A model generated the notes under the pieces. That model ran no database searches, was not told the DNA's origin, and was given only the letters and a program-made list of their open reading frames with translations. A DNA stretch of 64,000 nt. It comes from Gammaproteobacteria bacterium. Lineage in GTDB: Bacteria > Pseudomonadota > Gammaproteobacteria > Xanthomonadales > SZUA-36. Shown here in pieces: positions 13,070 through 49,143 of this stretch. Each line of letters opens with the position of its first letter. Position 1 is the stretch's first letter. The DNA is taken from positions 186,001-250,000 of the forward strand of contig JAJFLB010000018.1 of NCBI GenBank assembly GCA_021772915.1. Direction: 5' to 3'. The translations under genes and the position numbers were made by a program.

Positions 13070-13090
13070 TTTGAGCTGTCCCTGGTGGTA

Positions 13091-13186
13091 GGCCTTGGAA
13101 AGGACCAGCCATTCCCCGCGGACTGCGCCTTGTCTTGAATCATCTGGAAAGCTCTGAACACATCAATACCACCTTGTTGGGCCACT
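13091..13186 (-). mobile_element. Truncated copy of the 270-bp inverted-repeat element (copy C)
   Basis: Read on the minus strand, 13186 to about 13091 matches the first third of the elements at 31206-31476 and 48878-49143: left terminal repeat (13186-13154, ending TGTTCAG), then CCAGATGATTCAAGACAAGG and AATGGCTGGTCCTTTCCAAGG. Homology stops abruptly about 20 bases before the glycosyltransferase GTG. It begins 2 bases after the methyltransferase TAG stop. Confidence 0.8.
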
Positions 13187-29989: not shown

Positions 29990-31204
29990 CTATCCAACCA
30001 GTTCATTAATGCTCATAATGGCCATCAGAACAGACATTACGATGGTACCGATCATCACGGCCATTAAAAGTGTGATCGCCGGTGTAAATATTGCCAGTAA
30101 ACGGTCGATAGTAATACGAACTTCTTTGTCGTAAGTATCTGCAACTTTCAACAGCATTGAATCCAACTGGCCGGTTTCCTCACCTACGCTGACCATCTGT
30201 AGTGCCAGACGCGGAAAGTGCCCGTTGGTGGCCAGGTTATGCGCCAAACCGCCACCCGTTTTGACCAATTCGGTGGTTTCGACTAATGCCTGGCGTAGCA
30301 CAGTGTTGGTCATTACGTTACGCGCAATAGATAAGCCGGCCAACAACGGCACACCATTGGTCAGTAAAGTCCCCAGGGTACGGGCGAGACGTGCAATTTC
30401 CATTTTGGCAACCAGGTCACCTACCCAACGTAAACGCAGCACACGTGTGTCCCAACGAAATCGTTTGTCTGGCGTGGCCAGCATTCGACGAAACAACACC
30501 ATCGCCAGCACCACCAGACCAACCAGTCCCCACCAGAAATTTTGCAGAACACTGCCAAAAGCCAGTACGATCTTGGTAATTAAGGGCAGATCTCCACCCA
30601 ATTCCGCAAAAATTGGCGCGAATTGTGGAATCACATAAACCAACAACAAAACCAACGACCCGCCGGCGAGAACCATCAACATAATGGGATAGATCATGGC
30701 AGAAACAACACTGTCTTTGAGGTCCTTGGATCGCTCAAGATAATCTGCCAGCCGATCCAAAGTTTTATCCAGCGAGCCCCCGACTTCTCCGGCCCGTACC
30801 ATGTTGATAAACAGCCTGCTGAACGAACCGTGTTGGGCATCCAGCGCATCGGAGAGACTGCCACCTTCACGCACGTGATCGCGGATACCGGTCACGGCGC
30901 TTTCGACACGTTGATTTTCAGCCAGTTCGAGCAACACCTGCAGAGAGCGATCAAGCGGCAACCCGGCAGCAAGTAAAGTAGCGATTTGCTGGGTAAACTG
31001 GAGCACCTCACGGGCACTCATGCCACGTCTTTTGAAACTCAGGGTGTCGATATTGAAGCCACCCTGCCCGGCCACATTAGTCGACAGGGGAATGTTACCC
31101 CCGTCCTGGAGCTTGCTGATCACCCAGTCCTCGGACCCGGCTTCCATGGTGCCACGCACGGTCTCCCCAGATGGGGAAACCGCCTTGTATTCAAACAACG
31201 GCAC
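29990..31204 (-). CDS. gspF: Type II secretion platform protein GspF
   Basis: 404-residue polytopic membrane protein at the base of the T2SS, with two T2SSF domains (about 70-195 and 270-395) and three membrane spans near 170-195, 220-240 and 375-400; motifs REVLQFTQQIATLLAAGLPL and GTLLTNGVPLLAGLSIARN. The start codon is GTG at 31204, only 2 bases beyond the right end of an inverted-repeat element, whose G-run (7 Gs) sits about 6 bases upstream and can act as the ribosome site. Confidence 0.95.
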   Translation of the reverse strand: MPLFEYKAVSPSGETVRGTMEAGSEDWVISKLQDGGNIPLSTNVAGQGGFNIDTLSFKRRGMSAREVLQFTQQIATLLAAGLPLDRSLQVLLELAENQRVESAVTGIRDHVREGGSLSDALDAQHGSFSRLFINMVRAGEVGGSLDKTLDRLADYLERSKDLKDSVVSAMIYPIMLMVLAGGSLVLLLVYVIPQFAPIFAELGGDLPLITKIVLAFGSVLQNFWWGLVGLVVLAMVLFRRMLATPDKRFRWDTRVLRLRWVGDLVAKMEIARLARTLGTLLTNGVPLLAGLSIARNVMTNTVLRQALVETTELVKTGGGLAHNLATNGHFPRLALQMVSVGEETGQLDSMLLKVADTYDKEVRITIDRLLAIFTPAITLLMAVMIGTIVMSVLMAIMSINELVG

Positions 31205-31205
31205 T

Positions 31206-31476
31206 AGTGCCCCCCCAATGTGATAACTGCGAGTTCAGCGAGTTGGGAAGTGGTTGACCGCAAGGCGCGTCTCGCAGGTAATGGCCCGGTCCTTGCCAAG
31301 AGGCGCAACGCAACGCCACGGACGACCGGTTCCCAACTCGCCCGCAGGGACGTACCCAGATGCCCCAGTACGGCGTTGCAGCCCTTGAAAAGGACCCGCC
31401 ATTCTCTGCGCTCTGCGTCTTGTCCTGGAACATCTGGGTACCTCTGAATCCGTAGTTACCACATTGGAGGAGCACT
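31206..31476 (-). mobile_element. Inverted-repeat (MITE-like) element, copy B, between gspE and gspF
   Basis: A 271-bp non-coding insertion. Left terminal repeat (minus strand 31476-31444, starting AGTGCTCCTCCAATGTG) pairs with the right one (starting on plus at 31206, AGTGCCCCCCCAATGTG): 33 bp with about six differences, four of them G-U pairs in RNA of the transcribed strand. Inside are hairpin I, closed by GTACCCAGATG / CATCTGGGTAC, and hairpin II, closed by GCGAGTTGGGAA / TTCCCAACTCGC. The first two bases complete the TAG stop of gspE. It is homologous to 48878-49143 (copy A) and 13091-13186 (copy C), and points in the transcription direction. Confidence 0.85.
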
Positions 31477-33217
31477 AAGCTTCCTGGGTCACACGAAGGA
31501 TTTCTTCAATCGTCGTAACCCCTTGTAAACATTTGATCAGACCATCCTGGTACATGGTCCGCATGCCTTCCTTGACCGCCTGATCGTGGATGTCACCTGA
31601 GGTTGCCTGCTGCATAACCAGACGGCGAATGGAATCTGACATCGACAAAAGCTCCAAAATGCTGGTCCGACCAAAATAGCCGGAAGGATTGTCTTTACTG
31701 GGCACCGCACGATATACGGTATAACTGTCCTGTTGCAGAAAATCTCCAAAACCCATTTCCGCCGCAACTTCCGGCAACAACTGCACTTGTTCCCCGCAGT
31801 CTTCGCCCAGGGTGCGTACCAGACGCTGGGCAAGGATGGCATTTACAGTGGACGTTAGCAGATAATCTTCGACCCCCATGTCCATCATGCGGGTAATACC
31901 ACCGGCGGCGTCATTGGTGTGGATGGTGGAAAGCACCAGGTGCCCGGTGAGTGCAGATTGAATTGCAATACGGGCAGTTTCCAGGTCACGCATTTCCCCA
32001 ATCATGATGACATCTGGATCCTGTCGCACAATCGCTCTTAGCGCGTGCGCAAAATCCAGCCCAATGGATGATTGAGCCTGGATTTGATTGATGCCTTCGA
32101 GTTGATACTCAACCGGATCCTCGACCGTGATGATTTTTCTCTCAGGCGTATTAATCTGGCTAAGCGCGGTATAAAGCGTCGTGGTCTTGCCCGACCCGGT
32201 CGGGCCGGTAACCAGAATGATTCCGTGTGGCATTTCAAGATTTTTGACAAAACCCTTTTTCAATTCCTCATCAAAGCCCAGGGCATCAAAATCAAGTACG
32301 ATGCTCTCACGATCAAGAATACGCATCACCACGCTCTCGCCATGTGATGTCGGAATAGTTGAAACACGCAAATCCAACTCCTTACCCTGCACACGATGCA
32401 TGATGCGGCCGTCCTGAGGCAGCCGGCGTTCAGCAATATTTAACTTGGCCATAATTTTGACCCGGGAGATGACCGCCGCCGTAGAACTCGCAGGTGGTGC
32501 CTCCACTTCCTGCAATACGCCATCGATCCGATAGCGAACCTTGAGCCTGTTTTCAAACGGCTCTACATGTATGTCTGATGCACGCGCCTCTACCGCTCGT
32601 TGCATGATCAGGTTAACCAGGCGGATGACCGGGGCCTCGGAAGCCAGGTCACGCAGGTGCTCAACGTCTGCCAGTTCGTCATCTGACCCACCACCCAGTG
32701 TGTCAATAATCTGGCCCATGGCACTGCGGCCACCGCCATAGAGCTTCTCAATTCCGTTTTCGATTTCAGAGGCGATACCGACCTGCGGAATGATTGCGCG
32801 ACCGCTCGCCATGGCCAACGCCTTGAGTGCATATTCATCACGGGGGTTGGCCATGACAACGACCATGTCCTCAGCGGTCACACTGACTGGCAGCAGTAGG
32901 TTTTGCTTCAGAAAGCGGGCTGAGAGATTACCAACATCCGGCGCCTTGTCCGGTAAGTCCGCAGTGGTTTTCAACGGCAAATCCAGCAAACTGGACTCTG
33001 CCTCAGCAACATCACGCTCAGATACCAACCCCAAACGAACCAGCAAAGTGATCAGATCACCGCCGTTTTTTTCGCGAAATGCCTCAGCACTGTTCAGATC
33101 AGACTGCTTCAGGCGACCGCTTTCGAGCAGGTACACACAGACCTGATCTTTAACGGCATCGGGTAACTGTGCTTCGCTATCTGCTTTTTCTAGGTTTGCC
33201 TGCACGTTTTGCCCCAC
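31475..33217 (-). CDS. gspE: Type II secretion ATPase GspE
   Basis: Hexameric ATPase powering pseudopilus assembly. N1E-like domain near 20-160 (after the start), then the ATPase core: VTGPTGSGKTTTLYTALSQI (Walker A), ITVEDPVEYQLEGINQIQAQ (Asp box), GEMRDLETARIAIQSALTGH (Walker B) and STIHTNDAAGGITRM (His box). The zinc tetracysteine motif usually found before GYxGRxxxxEL is absent; only one Cys (EDCGEQ) is present and NPSGYFGRTSILELL follows. Start GTG 33217 (about 580 residues) is favoured because upstream frame to 33304 lies within the preceding gene; GTG 33205 is also possible. Its TAG stop uses two bases of element B. Confidence 0.94.
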   Translation of the reverse strand: MGQNVQANLEKADSEAQLPDAVKDQVCVYLLESGRLKQSDLNSAEAFREKNGGDLITLLVRLGLVSERDVAEAESSLLDLPLKTTADLPDKAPDVGNLSARFLKQNLLLPVSVTAEDMVVVMANPRDEYALKALAMASGRAIIPQVGIASEIENGIEKLYGGGRSAMGQIIDTLGGGSDDELADVEHLRDLASEAPVIRLVNLIMQRAVEARASDIHVEPFENRLKVRYRIDGVLQEVEAPPASSTAAVISRVKIMAKLNIAERRLPQDGRIMHRVQGKELDLRVSTIPTSHGESVVMRILDRESIVLDFDALGFDEELKKGFVKNLEMPHGIILVTGPTGSGKTTTLYTALSQINTPERKIITVEDPVEYQLEGINQIQAQSSIGLDFAHALRAIVRQDPDVIMIGEMRDLETARIAIQSALTGHLVLSTIHTNDAAGGITRMMDMGVEDYLLTSTVNAILAQRLVRTLGEDCGEQVQLLPEVAAEMGFGDFLQQDSYTVYRAVPSKDNPSGYFGRTSILELLSMSDSIRRLVMQQATSGDIHDQAVKEGMRTMYQDGLIKCLQGVTTIEEILRVTQEA

Positions 33218-33229
33218 TGTATTACTGGA

Positions 33230-33235
33230 ATTATA
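33230..33235 (-). promoter_or_regulatory. Candidate -10 box upstream of the T2SS operon
   Basis: A perfect TATAAT on the minus strand (33235-33230), about 12-30 bases before the possible gspE starts. No convincing -35 hexamer lies at 16-18 bases (best is ATTCAT). If used, the mRNA leader would be very short for GTG 33217 and short for GTG 33205. Confidence 0.35.
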
Positions 33236-33275
33236 ACCCGAACACAAAGACCATGAATGTAGCTGGTCAGTTCCC

Positions 33276-33899
33276 TCATGAAGTCTTTCTCTGCCACCCG
33301 GCAAACTGCTCGATCAAGCTCCAGTTTGTTAATACCCACAGTACAACCGGCACCAATGGCGGCAGAATCAAGACCCCCAACTGGTAACATAAAGCGATCA
33401 ATTCATCCGGAATACCGGCCGCGACTATGACCTGGTGAGCATCTCCGCCAAAATTGAATGCCAGTGTCTTCAGACTCTGCCAAACCACCCCCCAGACCTG
33501 TACCAGCATGACACACAAATAACCCGCCAATAAAACGACCAACTTCCTCAACCAAGATACACCGGAGGCCATCACCAGCCCAAATAGCAGGGGCAGACCA
33601 TAGCCGTATGTGAGCGGGTTAACGACGAATCCGAGCGCCTCTGTACTACCGTCCGGGAACCGGAAGGAAATGTGGGTTTGAATCTGGAACAGATAATGAT
33701 GGTCCGGGTTTGGCACGATATTCCAGAATTCGCTCCCGAGCCACTGAGACAAGATTCCATCGGCCAATATGCGCACCGGCACGCCATGGAACGCGCTCAG
33801 ATAAAACCACAGCATGAACCCGAAAATCATCCACAAAAAGGCCAGAATCAGCAATTCGCCCAAACGTAGCTCGTTGTTATCTGCTTGTCTGCCCATCAC
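33276..33899 (-). CDS. Polytopic membrane protein, possibly exosortase-associated
   Basis: 207 residues with four or five predicted membrane spans (about 13-35, 93-113, 118-140, 165-192). A conserved-looking motif FVVNPLTYGYGLPLLFGLVM and LVQVWGVVWQSLK, LIALCYQLGVLILPP recall small membrane proteins that accompany exosortase H in some gammaproteobacteria; I base this on remembered family features and hold it loosely. No exosortase gene is in the window. It lies directly upstream of gspE on the same strand and could be cotranscribed. Confidence 0.6.
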   Translation of the reverse strand: MMGRQADNNELRLGELLILAFLWMIFGFMLWFYLSAFHGVPVRILADGILSQWLGSEFWNIVPNPDHHYLFQIQTHISFRFPDGSTEALGFVVNPLTYGYGLPLLFGLVMASGVSWLRKLVVLLAGYLCVMLVQVWGVVWQSLKTLAFNFGGDAHQVIVAAGIPDELIALCYQLGVLILPPLVPVVLWVLTNWSLIEQFAGWQRKTS

Positions 33900-47404: not shown

Positions 47405-48895
47405 ATGAAATTTGAACTCAATACCGCTGCTGCGTCACTGGTTGATACTGACTGTCTGGTCATCGGAGTTTTCGAACAGATAGCACTGCAGGGCTCAGCT
47501 GCCGAGGTGGATGAAGCCAGTAGTGGTGCGTTGCAGCGACTGCTGGACTCTGGCGACATCGATACCGATTGGAAGCACACCACTTTGCTCCACGGTTTGG
47601 ATGGCGTAATGGCAAAACGCATACTTGTCGTAGGCTGCGGCAACACCAAGAAGTTCACTCGAGTTCGTTATGATGCAGTTTGCACAAGCGCCGGTGTGTT
47701 TTTGCACAATCACGCCACCACCGGCGCTCACCTTCGTTTAAACGAACTTGAGGTTGAAGAAATGAGCGCCCATTGGCGACTCCGCCAGGCTGCCGTGAGT
47801 CTGGATCGCGCCAACTACCGATACACCACCACCAAACCTTTGAAAAACGATGACCCGGAACCGCTATTGGGTGCGTCTTTTGGTGCGACGGATGATTTAC
47901 ATCCCGCACTGGATGAGGCAAGCGGCATCGCCAAGGGATACCTGGTATCCAGGGAATTGGGCAACCTGCCGCCAAACATTTGTAACCCTGTCTACCTGGC
48001 CGAACAGGCGCTTGAAATTCAGGCCGACTACGAGAATGTCAGTTGCGAAATCCTGGATCAGGATGCAATGAGTAGCCTGAAAATGTTTGCGTTTCTGTCG
48101 GTTGGCCGAGGTAGCACCAACCCACCGCGAATGATTGTGCTCAACTACCAGGGCACTGGCAAGGATGTCCGGCCCATAGTGATGGTGGGTAAGGGAATCA
48201 CCTTCGACACGGGAGGCATATCACTAAAACCCGGTCCAAACATGGAACAAATGAAGTTTGACATGGGTGGTGCAGCCAGCGTGATGGGGGCGTTCGTTAC
48301 CTGTGCCGAATTGCAATTGCCAATCAACCTGGTGTGCATTGTTGCAGCGGCCGAAAACATGCCGGATGGTGACGCCTTTCGACCAGGTGACGTCATTACG
48401 TCAATGTCGGGAAAGACCATCGAAGTTCTCAATACCGATGCAGAAGGGCGACTCGTGTTGTGCGATGCATTGACCTACAGCCGGCGATTTAACCCGACTG
48501 CGTTGATTGACGTGGCGACTTTGACCGGCGCTTGCGTGGTTGCCCTTGGGCACCACGCATCCGCCATAATGAGCAAACACGACGATCTGGCGGATGAATT
48601 GGTTGAAGCCGGACAGGAAGCTGTCGACAGGGGCTGGCGATTGCCACTTTGGAACGACTACCAGTCGCAGTTGAAATCAACCTTTGCCGATATGAAAAAT
48701 GTGGGTGGCATGCCGGCGGGTAGTGTCACGGCGGGCTGCTTTCTTTCACGTTTCACAGATACCATGCGCTGGGCCCATATTGACTGTGCGGGCTCTACCT
48801 GGAAATGGGGTGGCAAGGAAGGCTCTACCGGCAGACCGGTTGGACTTTTGACCCAATTCCTGATTAACCAGGCCAATAGTACTCCCGCAAGGTAA
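47405..48895 (+). CDS. pepA: Leucyl aminopeptidase PepA
   Basis: M17 dizinc aminopeptidase; in E. coli also a DNA-binding Xer accessory factor and regulator. 496 residues from ATG 47405 (MKFELNTAAASLV); a frame extending to 47348 is not supported. Metal and catalytic residues: VGKGITFDTGGISLKPG (Lys, Asp), MKFDMGGAA and the signature NTDAEGRLVLCDAL. The last five codons and the stop come from the left terminal repeat of element A, so the very C terminus (STPAR) is likely insertion-derived. Confidence 0.96.
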   Translation: MKFELNTAAASLVDTDCLVIGVFEQIALQGSAAEVDEASSGALQRLLDSGDIDTDWKHTTLLHGLDGVMAKRILVVGCGNTKKFTRVRYDAVCTSAGVFLHNHATTGAHLRLNELEVEEMSAHWRLRQAAVSLDRANYRYTTTKPLKNDDPEPLLGASFGATDDLHPALDEASGIAKGYLVSRELGNLPPNICNPVYLAEQALEIQADYENVSCEILDQDAMSSLKMFAFLSVGRGSTNPPRMIVLNYQGTGKDVRPIVMVGKGITFDTGGISLKPGPNMEQMKFDMGGAASVMGAFVTCAELQLPINLVCIVAAAENMPDGDAFRPGDVITSMSGKTIEVLNTDAEGRLVLCDALTYSRRFNPTALIDVATLTGACVVALGHHASAIMSKHDDLADELVEAGQEAVDRGWRLPLWNDYQSQLKSTFADMKNVGGMPAGSVTAGCFLSRFTDTMRWAHIDCAGSTWKWGGKEGSTGRPVGLLTQFLINQANSTPAR

Positions 48896-49143
48896 TATCG
48901 CCATGTTCAGAGCCAAGCAGATGATCCAAGACAAGGCACAGCGCGCCGACAATGGCTGGTTCTTGTTAAGAGCTGTAACGCCGTATTGGGTCATCTGCTT
49001 GGCGCCCTTCGGGCCAGCCGGGAAGTGGTCGTCCATGGCGTTGCACCTGTTGGCAAGGACCAGGCCATTACTCGCGAGGCGCGCCTTGCGGTCAACCACT
49101 TCCCAACTCGCTGAACACGGCGATATTACCTTGCAGGAGTACT
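48878..49143 (+). mobile_element. Inverted-repeat (MITE-like) element, copy A, between pepA and holC
   Basis: 266 bp with 33-bp terminal inverted repeats (48878-48910, starting AGTACTCCCGCAAGGTAATA; 49111-49143, ending TTGCAGGAGTACT) that differ at only two positions. Hairpin I: GCCAAGCAGATGATCC (48912-48927) with GGGTCATCTGCTTGGC (48988-49003). Hairpin II: GGGAAGTGGT (49020-49029) with ACCACTTCCC (49095-49104). No transposase; no clear target duplication beyond possible single bases. An 80-codon frame runs through it (see findings). It is in the same orientation as transcription. Confidence 0.87.

Follow-up and report, generated by a model that had tools for sequence, protein, structure and literature searches.

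Introduction

MITEs of the IS630/Tc1-mariner type, such as Correia elements and ERIC, are 100–400 bp long and have terminal inverted repeats (TIRs), TA ends, stable folds and no long reading frame; their copies lie between genes. For IS630, a 1991 paper reportedly names the TA in CTAG in its title. The accessible part of one account states that ISY100 and IS630 insert at TA and duplicate it (PMC2170065). REPINs are organized differently. In the portion of the source available here they are non-autonomous pairs of inverted hairpin units with compensatory changes, predicted to fold as ssDNA or mRNA (PMC3116915).

Here we describe a short element of which one copy, B, lies in a type II secretion operon of a gammaproteobacterium. 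The window, i.e. the whole stretch of DNA that was analyzed, is 64,000 nucleotides long. With its TIRs, many dispersed copies and lack of a transposase gene, the element is a MITE in the broad sense, and it also carries two inverted hairpins. No description of it was found in searches of an open-licence library. We ask how the paired arms of B stay paired, and find that the hairpin stems and the TIRs do so in different ways.

Element B and its site

Element B spans 31206–31476, between gspF and gspE (Table 1); Pfam also matches a secretin in the window, besides T2SSE and T2SSF. The strict limits of B are 31207–31475 (269 bp), with TA on either side, and the last base of the stop codon of gspE comes from the element. 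B alone was examined for reading frames and contains none of 100 aa or more. It folds better than shuffled versions of itself, with z −9.55 on the plus strand and −7.97 on the minus strand and 0 of 200 shuffles as good.

Table 1. Features of the window discussed in the text (R1, covariance model built from 44 diverse hairpins)
Feature	Position	Strand	Evidence or remark
Third copy, truncated (right end and part of the beta hairpin)	13085–13186	+	R1 partial match 13081–13132 (−), E 1.1e-4
gspF	29990–31204	−	Pfam T2SSF
TA, left flank (target dinucleotide)	31205–31206	.	Sequence
Left terminal repeat of B (P1, 5′ arm)	31206–31238	+	Opens with the A of the left TA; pairs with 31444–31476
Hairpin alpha (II) of B	31240–31339	sense strand +	R1, 72 bits, E 4.1e-15
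Central mini-hairpin of B, CCC-GCA-GGG	31341–31349	+	Sequence
Hairpin beta (I) of B, the hairpin of the sequence-only reading	31350–31443	sense strand −	R1, 79 bits, E 7.9e-17
Right terminal repeat of B (P1, 3′ arm)	31444–31476	−	Closes with the T of the right TA
gspE	31475–33304	−	Pfam T2SSE
TA, right flank	31476–31477	.	Makes up TAG, the stop codon of gspE, with element base 31475
Element A, second full copy	48878–49143	−	Hairpins 49015–49109 (−) and 48911–49004 (+)

An earlier, sequence-only reading of the window had described B as the gspE–gspF copy, within the T2SS operon, of an element seen again as A, alike along its length but with arms that had changed together. The Pfam matches on either side agree with that placement, and A and B are 79% alike over 233 aligned columns. 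The arms of hairpin I are as described (CCAAGCAGATG/CATCTGCTTGG in A and GTACCCAGATG/CATCTGGGTAC in B). Of these 11 pairs, four are changed on both sides between the copies and stay Watson–Crick, the number given by that reading. The terminal repeats had been said to differ between A and B and to agree within each, and they do: 27 of the 33 positions pair in B, the six exceptions are all transitions, and the two repeats of A match closely.

The window was scanned against Rfam together with 15 other loci. Apart from RNase P and a single tRNA nothing scored above the gathering cut-off, and the element was left unmatched; at E ≤ 10, B drew just one miRNA model, whose 21.4 bits fall far short of its cut-off, 124. 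The RNase P RNA, of bacterial class A, lies at 118–480 (−) of the window.

In six congeners of the window's genome that have no copy of B, gspE and gspF abut as TGATG. A TA duplication at this site needs an ancestral TAGTG, whereas the congeners read TGATG; the alternative to a duplication is a three-base replacement. For five other copies in the window's genome, congener matches cross the joined flanks, which indicates that these sites are unoccupied in the congeners; the sites are too diverged for the exact junction to be aligned.

Copies and range

A search with B gave 74 alignment matches at E ≤ 1 in the window's genome, but a single copy often accounts for several of these, in pieces or on the reverse strand. 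The near-full copies there make up 22 of the 48 rows of the family alignment, A1, which holds 48 of 51 candidates (L057, L060 and L061 were left out). The pattern for the TIR ends has at least 65 matches in this genome, against one for the reversed pattern. Several TIR types coexist there, unlike in genome G161, a single contig of 2.96 Mb with 22 copies of 262–263 bp in eleven distinct sequences. TA is present on both sides of 19 of the 22, and the left TA is preceded by T in 10 copies, A in 6, G in 3 and C in 3. In the window's family, CTAG is found at 30 of 56 left ends and 33 of 57 right ends. The copies are dispersed and built to a fixed plan, and those of G161 are nearly identical and flanked by TA.

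Several contigs of the window's genome end inside closely similar copies (L009, L010, L011, L019, L021 and L023), and recent copies may be what breaks the assembly. One copy (L004, contig C10 of the window's genome, 163664–163929) sits at the end of another gene that GspF matches, at 35%, and supplies the TAG stop codon of that gene, presumably pilC. Remnants (L251, L270 and others of L252–L269) consist of one-end pieces and of palindromes of about 40 bp; the latter contain nothing but the two TIR tips and retain the outer ends.

Across a set of 41 genomes, the window's own included, 11 had a match. A pattern for the core was found in at least 116 stretches of named genomes; the genera and families among the matches listed include Thiodiazotropha, Thiohalobacter, Microbulbifer, Marinobacter, Sedimenticola and Woeseiaceae. 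Inverted ends were recognized in 85 of 123 rows and are 263–271 bp apart in 59 of these (many of the other rows are near the end of their stretch), and the TIRs are very different. At E ≤ 1e-4 the covariance model R1 matched hairpins in 74 genomes, counting the window's own, out of 229 drawn from the whole class, and in 79 of 299 in a sample of the phylum, where among the matches listed 50 are outside the class, 44 of these in one family; its E-values are rough, and weak single matches may be chance. Judged by this model, the element appears to be widespread in one large bacterial class, at about one-third of the sampled genomes. The element was not found in viral contigs, plasmids or phages.

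Shared architecture

The aligned copies are built alike. Each begins with a TIR (P1; about 33 bp, in most cases with CAG at its end), which is followed by a first hairpin, a mini-hairpin of nine bases, the second hairpin on the opposite strand and finally the other TIR. The hairpins are about 95 nt long and of two types, with their senses on opposite strands in 116 of the 119 elements compared. Of the three exceptions, one has an unrecognized second hairpin and two (L107 and L218) have one hairpin flipped, so that both are read on the same strand. The two hairpins are related to each other: in most copies AATGGC..GTCCTT..CAAG.G..GCAACG runs through both, on opposite strands. The unpaired core bases are conserved across many genera, and the stems retain their folds although the majority of their bases have changed.

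In a tree of 204 hairpins, 78 of 86 elements have their two hairpins on opposite sides of a single split, compared with at most 54 in 200 shuffles. The element is therefore probably an old pair of two hairpin types, alpha and beta; the split has a support of only 0.65, and stems were included in the tree. In the 78 elements that combine an alpha with a beta hairpin, the loop of the mini-hairpin read on the alpha strand is GNA in 52 (the mini-hairpin motif is present in 74 and absent in four). A C-GNA-G loop is very stable in DNA.

Some copies depart from the plan within the hairpins. The internal loop of the alpha or the beta hairpin may hold an insert of about 23–28 nt (CCAAGAGTAGGCGCC..CAGGCGAC), which is found on both sides of the loop and in both orientations (L003, L007, L008, L013, L042, L073, L078 and others). 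When one mismatch is tolerated, 26 of the 119 elements contain its motif, and the insert is possibly a mobile piece within the element. In L047, L081, L083, L130 and L181 the hairpin apex is swapped for another stem-loop (GGGGTAGCC..TCTACC, for example) while the junction core is kept.

Covariation and strand bias

The sequence-only reading had proposed a statistical covariation test over many copies, with R-scape as an example. We used a home-written test along the same lines, rather than R-scape itself, with mutual information (APC-corrected) as the score and a null in which changes are placed at random on a tree. At E ≤ 0.05, 28 of 30 TIR pairs were significant in 119 elements, on a tree built without the TIRs. 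For the hairpins, represented by 44 diverse sequences, the count was 21 of 35 pairs. No pair off the structure was significant in this test. The 35 hairpin pairs are those that RNAalifold assigns to this set; at 34 of the 35, both partners are changed in one or more sequences, and at one position U·G is the most frequent pair (23 of 44). The hairpin alignment, A2, is a hand-chosen 44 of 58 diverse hairpins. The 14 left out are two flipped hairpins and others with inserts, odd cores or short ends, including B's own alpha.

Mismatches in the arms separate the two parts of the element. Arm pairs were aligned with strand-neutral scoring in the 119 elements, which comprise 48 from the window's family and 71 from named genomes (71 of 116 loci listed, with one element per locus, TIR score ≥18 and span 240–330). 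Read on its own strand, the first hairpin has 208 G·T against 23 A·C, with 120 other mismatches, and the second 174 against 15, with 83 others, or 382 against 38 for the two hairpins together. When the whole element is read on one strand the counts are 211 G·T and 195 A·C, in a set of mixed subfamilies; this balance vanishes once each hairpin is read on its own strand. The TIRs have 107 G·T, 83 A·C and 59 other mismatches, a strand lean that is at most weak (G·T in excess in 44 elements, A·C in 25; p 0.03).

The tempo of change also differs. We compared 34 sister pairs. At distances below 0.1, we counted 30 double and 32 single changes in the TIRs but 6 and 37 in the hairpins (Fisher p 0.0003, or 0.015 without the richest pair, L152/L187). 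At larger distances the ratios of double to single changes are 24:19 in TIRs versus 17:35 in hairpins, and 20:5 versus 11:13, so that double changes are in relative excess in the TIRs at every distance. One-sided hairpin changes in sister pairs went through own-strand wobble in 50 of 85 cases and through the opposite mismatch in 12; for the TIRs the counts are 21 and 21. In one G161 copy, the interior agrees with the commonest copy at 152 of 201 positions (76%), yet both TIRs agree at 31 of 31. Such TIR uniformity was seen in G161 only, where one copy is off at one TIR base.

Pairing in the hairpin stems is kept on each hairpin's own strand, mainly through compensation. The own-strand wobble bias, the one-sided steps through wobble and the significant covariation favour selection on a single-stranded fold. 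Pairing within one strand would produce the wobble bias, for which processes on double-stranded DNA offer no obvious cause. The TIRs behave as double-stranded DNA and tend to change in concert, as seen in their evenly split one-sided changes, their excess of double changes and the same TIRs around differing G161 interiors.

The sequence-only reading had offered two explanations for the kept pairing: either RNA structure is under selection, or one arm is copied from its partner. Both are supported, each for a different part of the element. The first stands for the hairpin stems as selection on a single-stranded fold, which may be of RNA or of ssDNA. The second stands for the TIRs as concerted change at the DNA level, either by copying between arms or by exchange between copies.

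Search for a mobilizing enzyme

Using the TIR pattern, we found no parent IS sharing the ends in five genomes of the family and G161. With an 18-base pattern for the TIR tip (up to 3 mismatches), 44 of the 46 matches in G161 belong to its 22 elements and two are single, and no longer element with the same ends was found there. Twenty regions with orphan ends, among the matches listed for the window's genome, G007 and G024, were inspected by eye; they hold copies, remnants and probable chance matches, and no transposase was seen.

Two transposase families were considered and rejected as the mobilizer. DDE_3 has no match in the window's genome or G007, and the gene is present in 5 of 16 copy-rich genomes, thus lacking in 11, and in 2 of 13 copy-free genomes. 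Y1_Tnp is present in all 16 copy-rich genomes but also in 8 of the 13 copy-free ones, and is thus unspecific; a hairpin lies near only 1 of 41 Y1_Tnp loci, with no linkage to a RAYT. Separately, G161 carries five IS630-type copies of about 1110 bp (L375–L379), whose TIR, TATTGAGCCTTGCATAAAT, is unlike that of the element.

Discussion

The best explanation as a whole, to which we give no more credence than to its failing, makes B one copy of a mobile element that is short and non-autonomous and sits at TA, served in trans by a transposase at its TIRs, with hairpins that are read single-stranded. The TIRs would be the ends where the transposase acts, and would be homogenized by exchange between copies or between arms. 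A trans-acting factor would recognize the folded core as a single-stranded hairpin, one per strand, most likely in ssDNA extruded during replication of the locus. Such recognition would serve the element's own propagation and not the surrounding host genes. G·T and G·U leave the same signal; we lean towards ssDNA over RNA because of the opposite-strand layout, the lack of dependence on transcripts and the GNA loop. More tentatively, two ancient single-stranded hairpins, one per strand and read by a trans-acting enzyme, may define a class of elements whose TIRs are exchangeable and genome-specific.

Other explanations account for part of these results. The hairpins could act as RNA: with two modules on opposite strands, insertion in either direction would put one folded module into a transcript, where it would protect or tune operon expression. 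A wobble bias with one-sided steps through wobble is the classical signature of RNA, and the hairpin position at which U·G is the commonest pair fits as well. Placement could be read in the same way. Sufficient flank was available for 77 of the 119 elements: tandem genes surround 48 of these, divergent genes 14 and convergent genes 10, and 5 have no nearby frame; tandem placement is thus 48 of the 72 with frames on both sides, and in 24 of the 48 the upstream frame stops at the element's edge. However, the hairpin in the sense of the transcript is kept no better than the other (4.9% and 4.7% bad pairs, p 0.63, 48 elements), in a comparison that leaves copy ages aside and may have little power, and Rfam has no matching family. 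As the two hairpins do not differ in this respect, we rejected the direction of host transcripts as the source of the hairpin constraint. The equal upkeep of both hairpins favours a role in the element's own life, and we regard action as RNA as possible but rather doubtful.

It is less probable still that B is an ordinary MITE in which only the TIRs matter to an IS630/Tc1-mariner-type transposase, the hairpins being passengers that are re-paired by template switching in quasi-palindromes. The TA flanks and like TIRs of G161 and the CTAG ends in the window's family would fit such a MITE. Template switching, however, would seem to leave the ten-to-one own-strand preference for G·T over A·C unexplained; double changes are rarer in hairpins than in TIRs, the core bases persist through many genera, and most copy-rich genomes do without a DDE_3 gene. 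The least probable explanation, which we think quite unlikely, is a relative of REPINs, in which a RAYT (Y1) transposase reads single-stranded hairpins in inverted pairs. Two inverted hairpin units with compensatory changes resemble such pairs, and every copy-rich genome has Y1_Tnp; yet the Y1 genes also occur in copy-free genomes, and their loci almost always lack a hairpin nearby. To our knowledge, TA flanks and long TIRs are not features of REPINs.

If the non-autonomous element with single-stranded hairpins is the right explanation, a structured element whose hairpin model matches about one-third of the sampled genomes of the class has so far had neither an Rfam match nor an open-licence description that we could find. 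Concerted exchange and compensatory selection would operate side by side within 270 bp, separable by the strand bias of wobble pairs, and the pattern would point to an enzyme that may recognize folded hairpins on opposite strands.

Compared with IS630/Tc1-mariner-type MITEs, the element is distinguished by two conserved opposite-strand hairpin modules with strand-specific wobble, by TIRs whose sequence varies by genome while the core persists, and by a parent IS that our searches did not find. QMITE1 and QMITE2 of Coxiella burnetii, in the available part of their description, are likewise gammaproteobacterial MITEs with TIRs and very stable palindromic folds; QMITE1 differs in its length of about 400 bp, its 2–4 bp repeats and its reported lack of orthologues elsewhere, and QMITE2 in its 7–9 bp repeats (PMC5896051). 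The MITEs of Thiomargarita nelsonii, compared by description only and from the accessible part of the source, are abundant and form large hairpin folds; one kind ends in TATAG, while the other kind has 10-bp direct repeats, unlike the element (PMC4853749). MITEPsy1 shares insertion at CTAG, or at YTAA, but as far as the available text describes it is 100 bp long with a 4-bp duplication and 18-nt TIRs, and is thought to derive from ISPsy2 (PMC3189936). Relative to REPINs, as the available part of their description presents them, the element has TIRs of about 33 bp, TA flanks and cores inside the hairpins instead of at the ends, and no RAYT linkage was found (PMC3116915). With neither a parent IS nor linkage to a RAYT found in our searches, the element is MITE-like at its ends and REPIN-like in its inverted hairpins.
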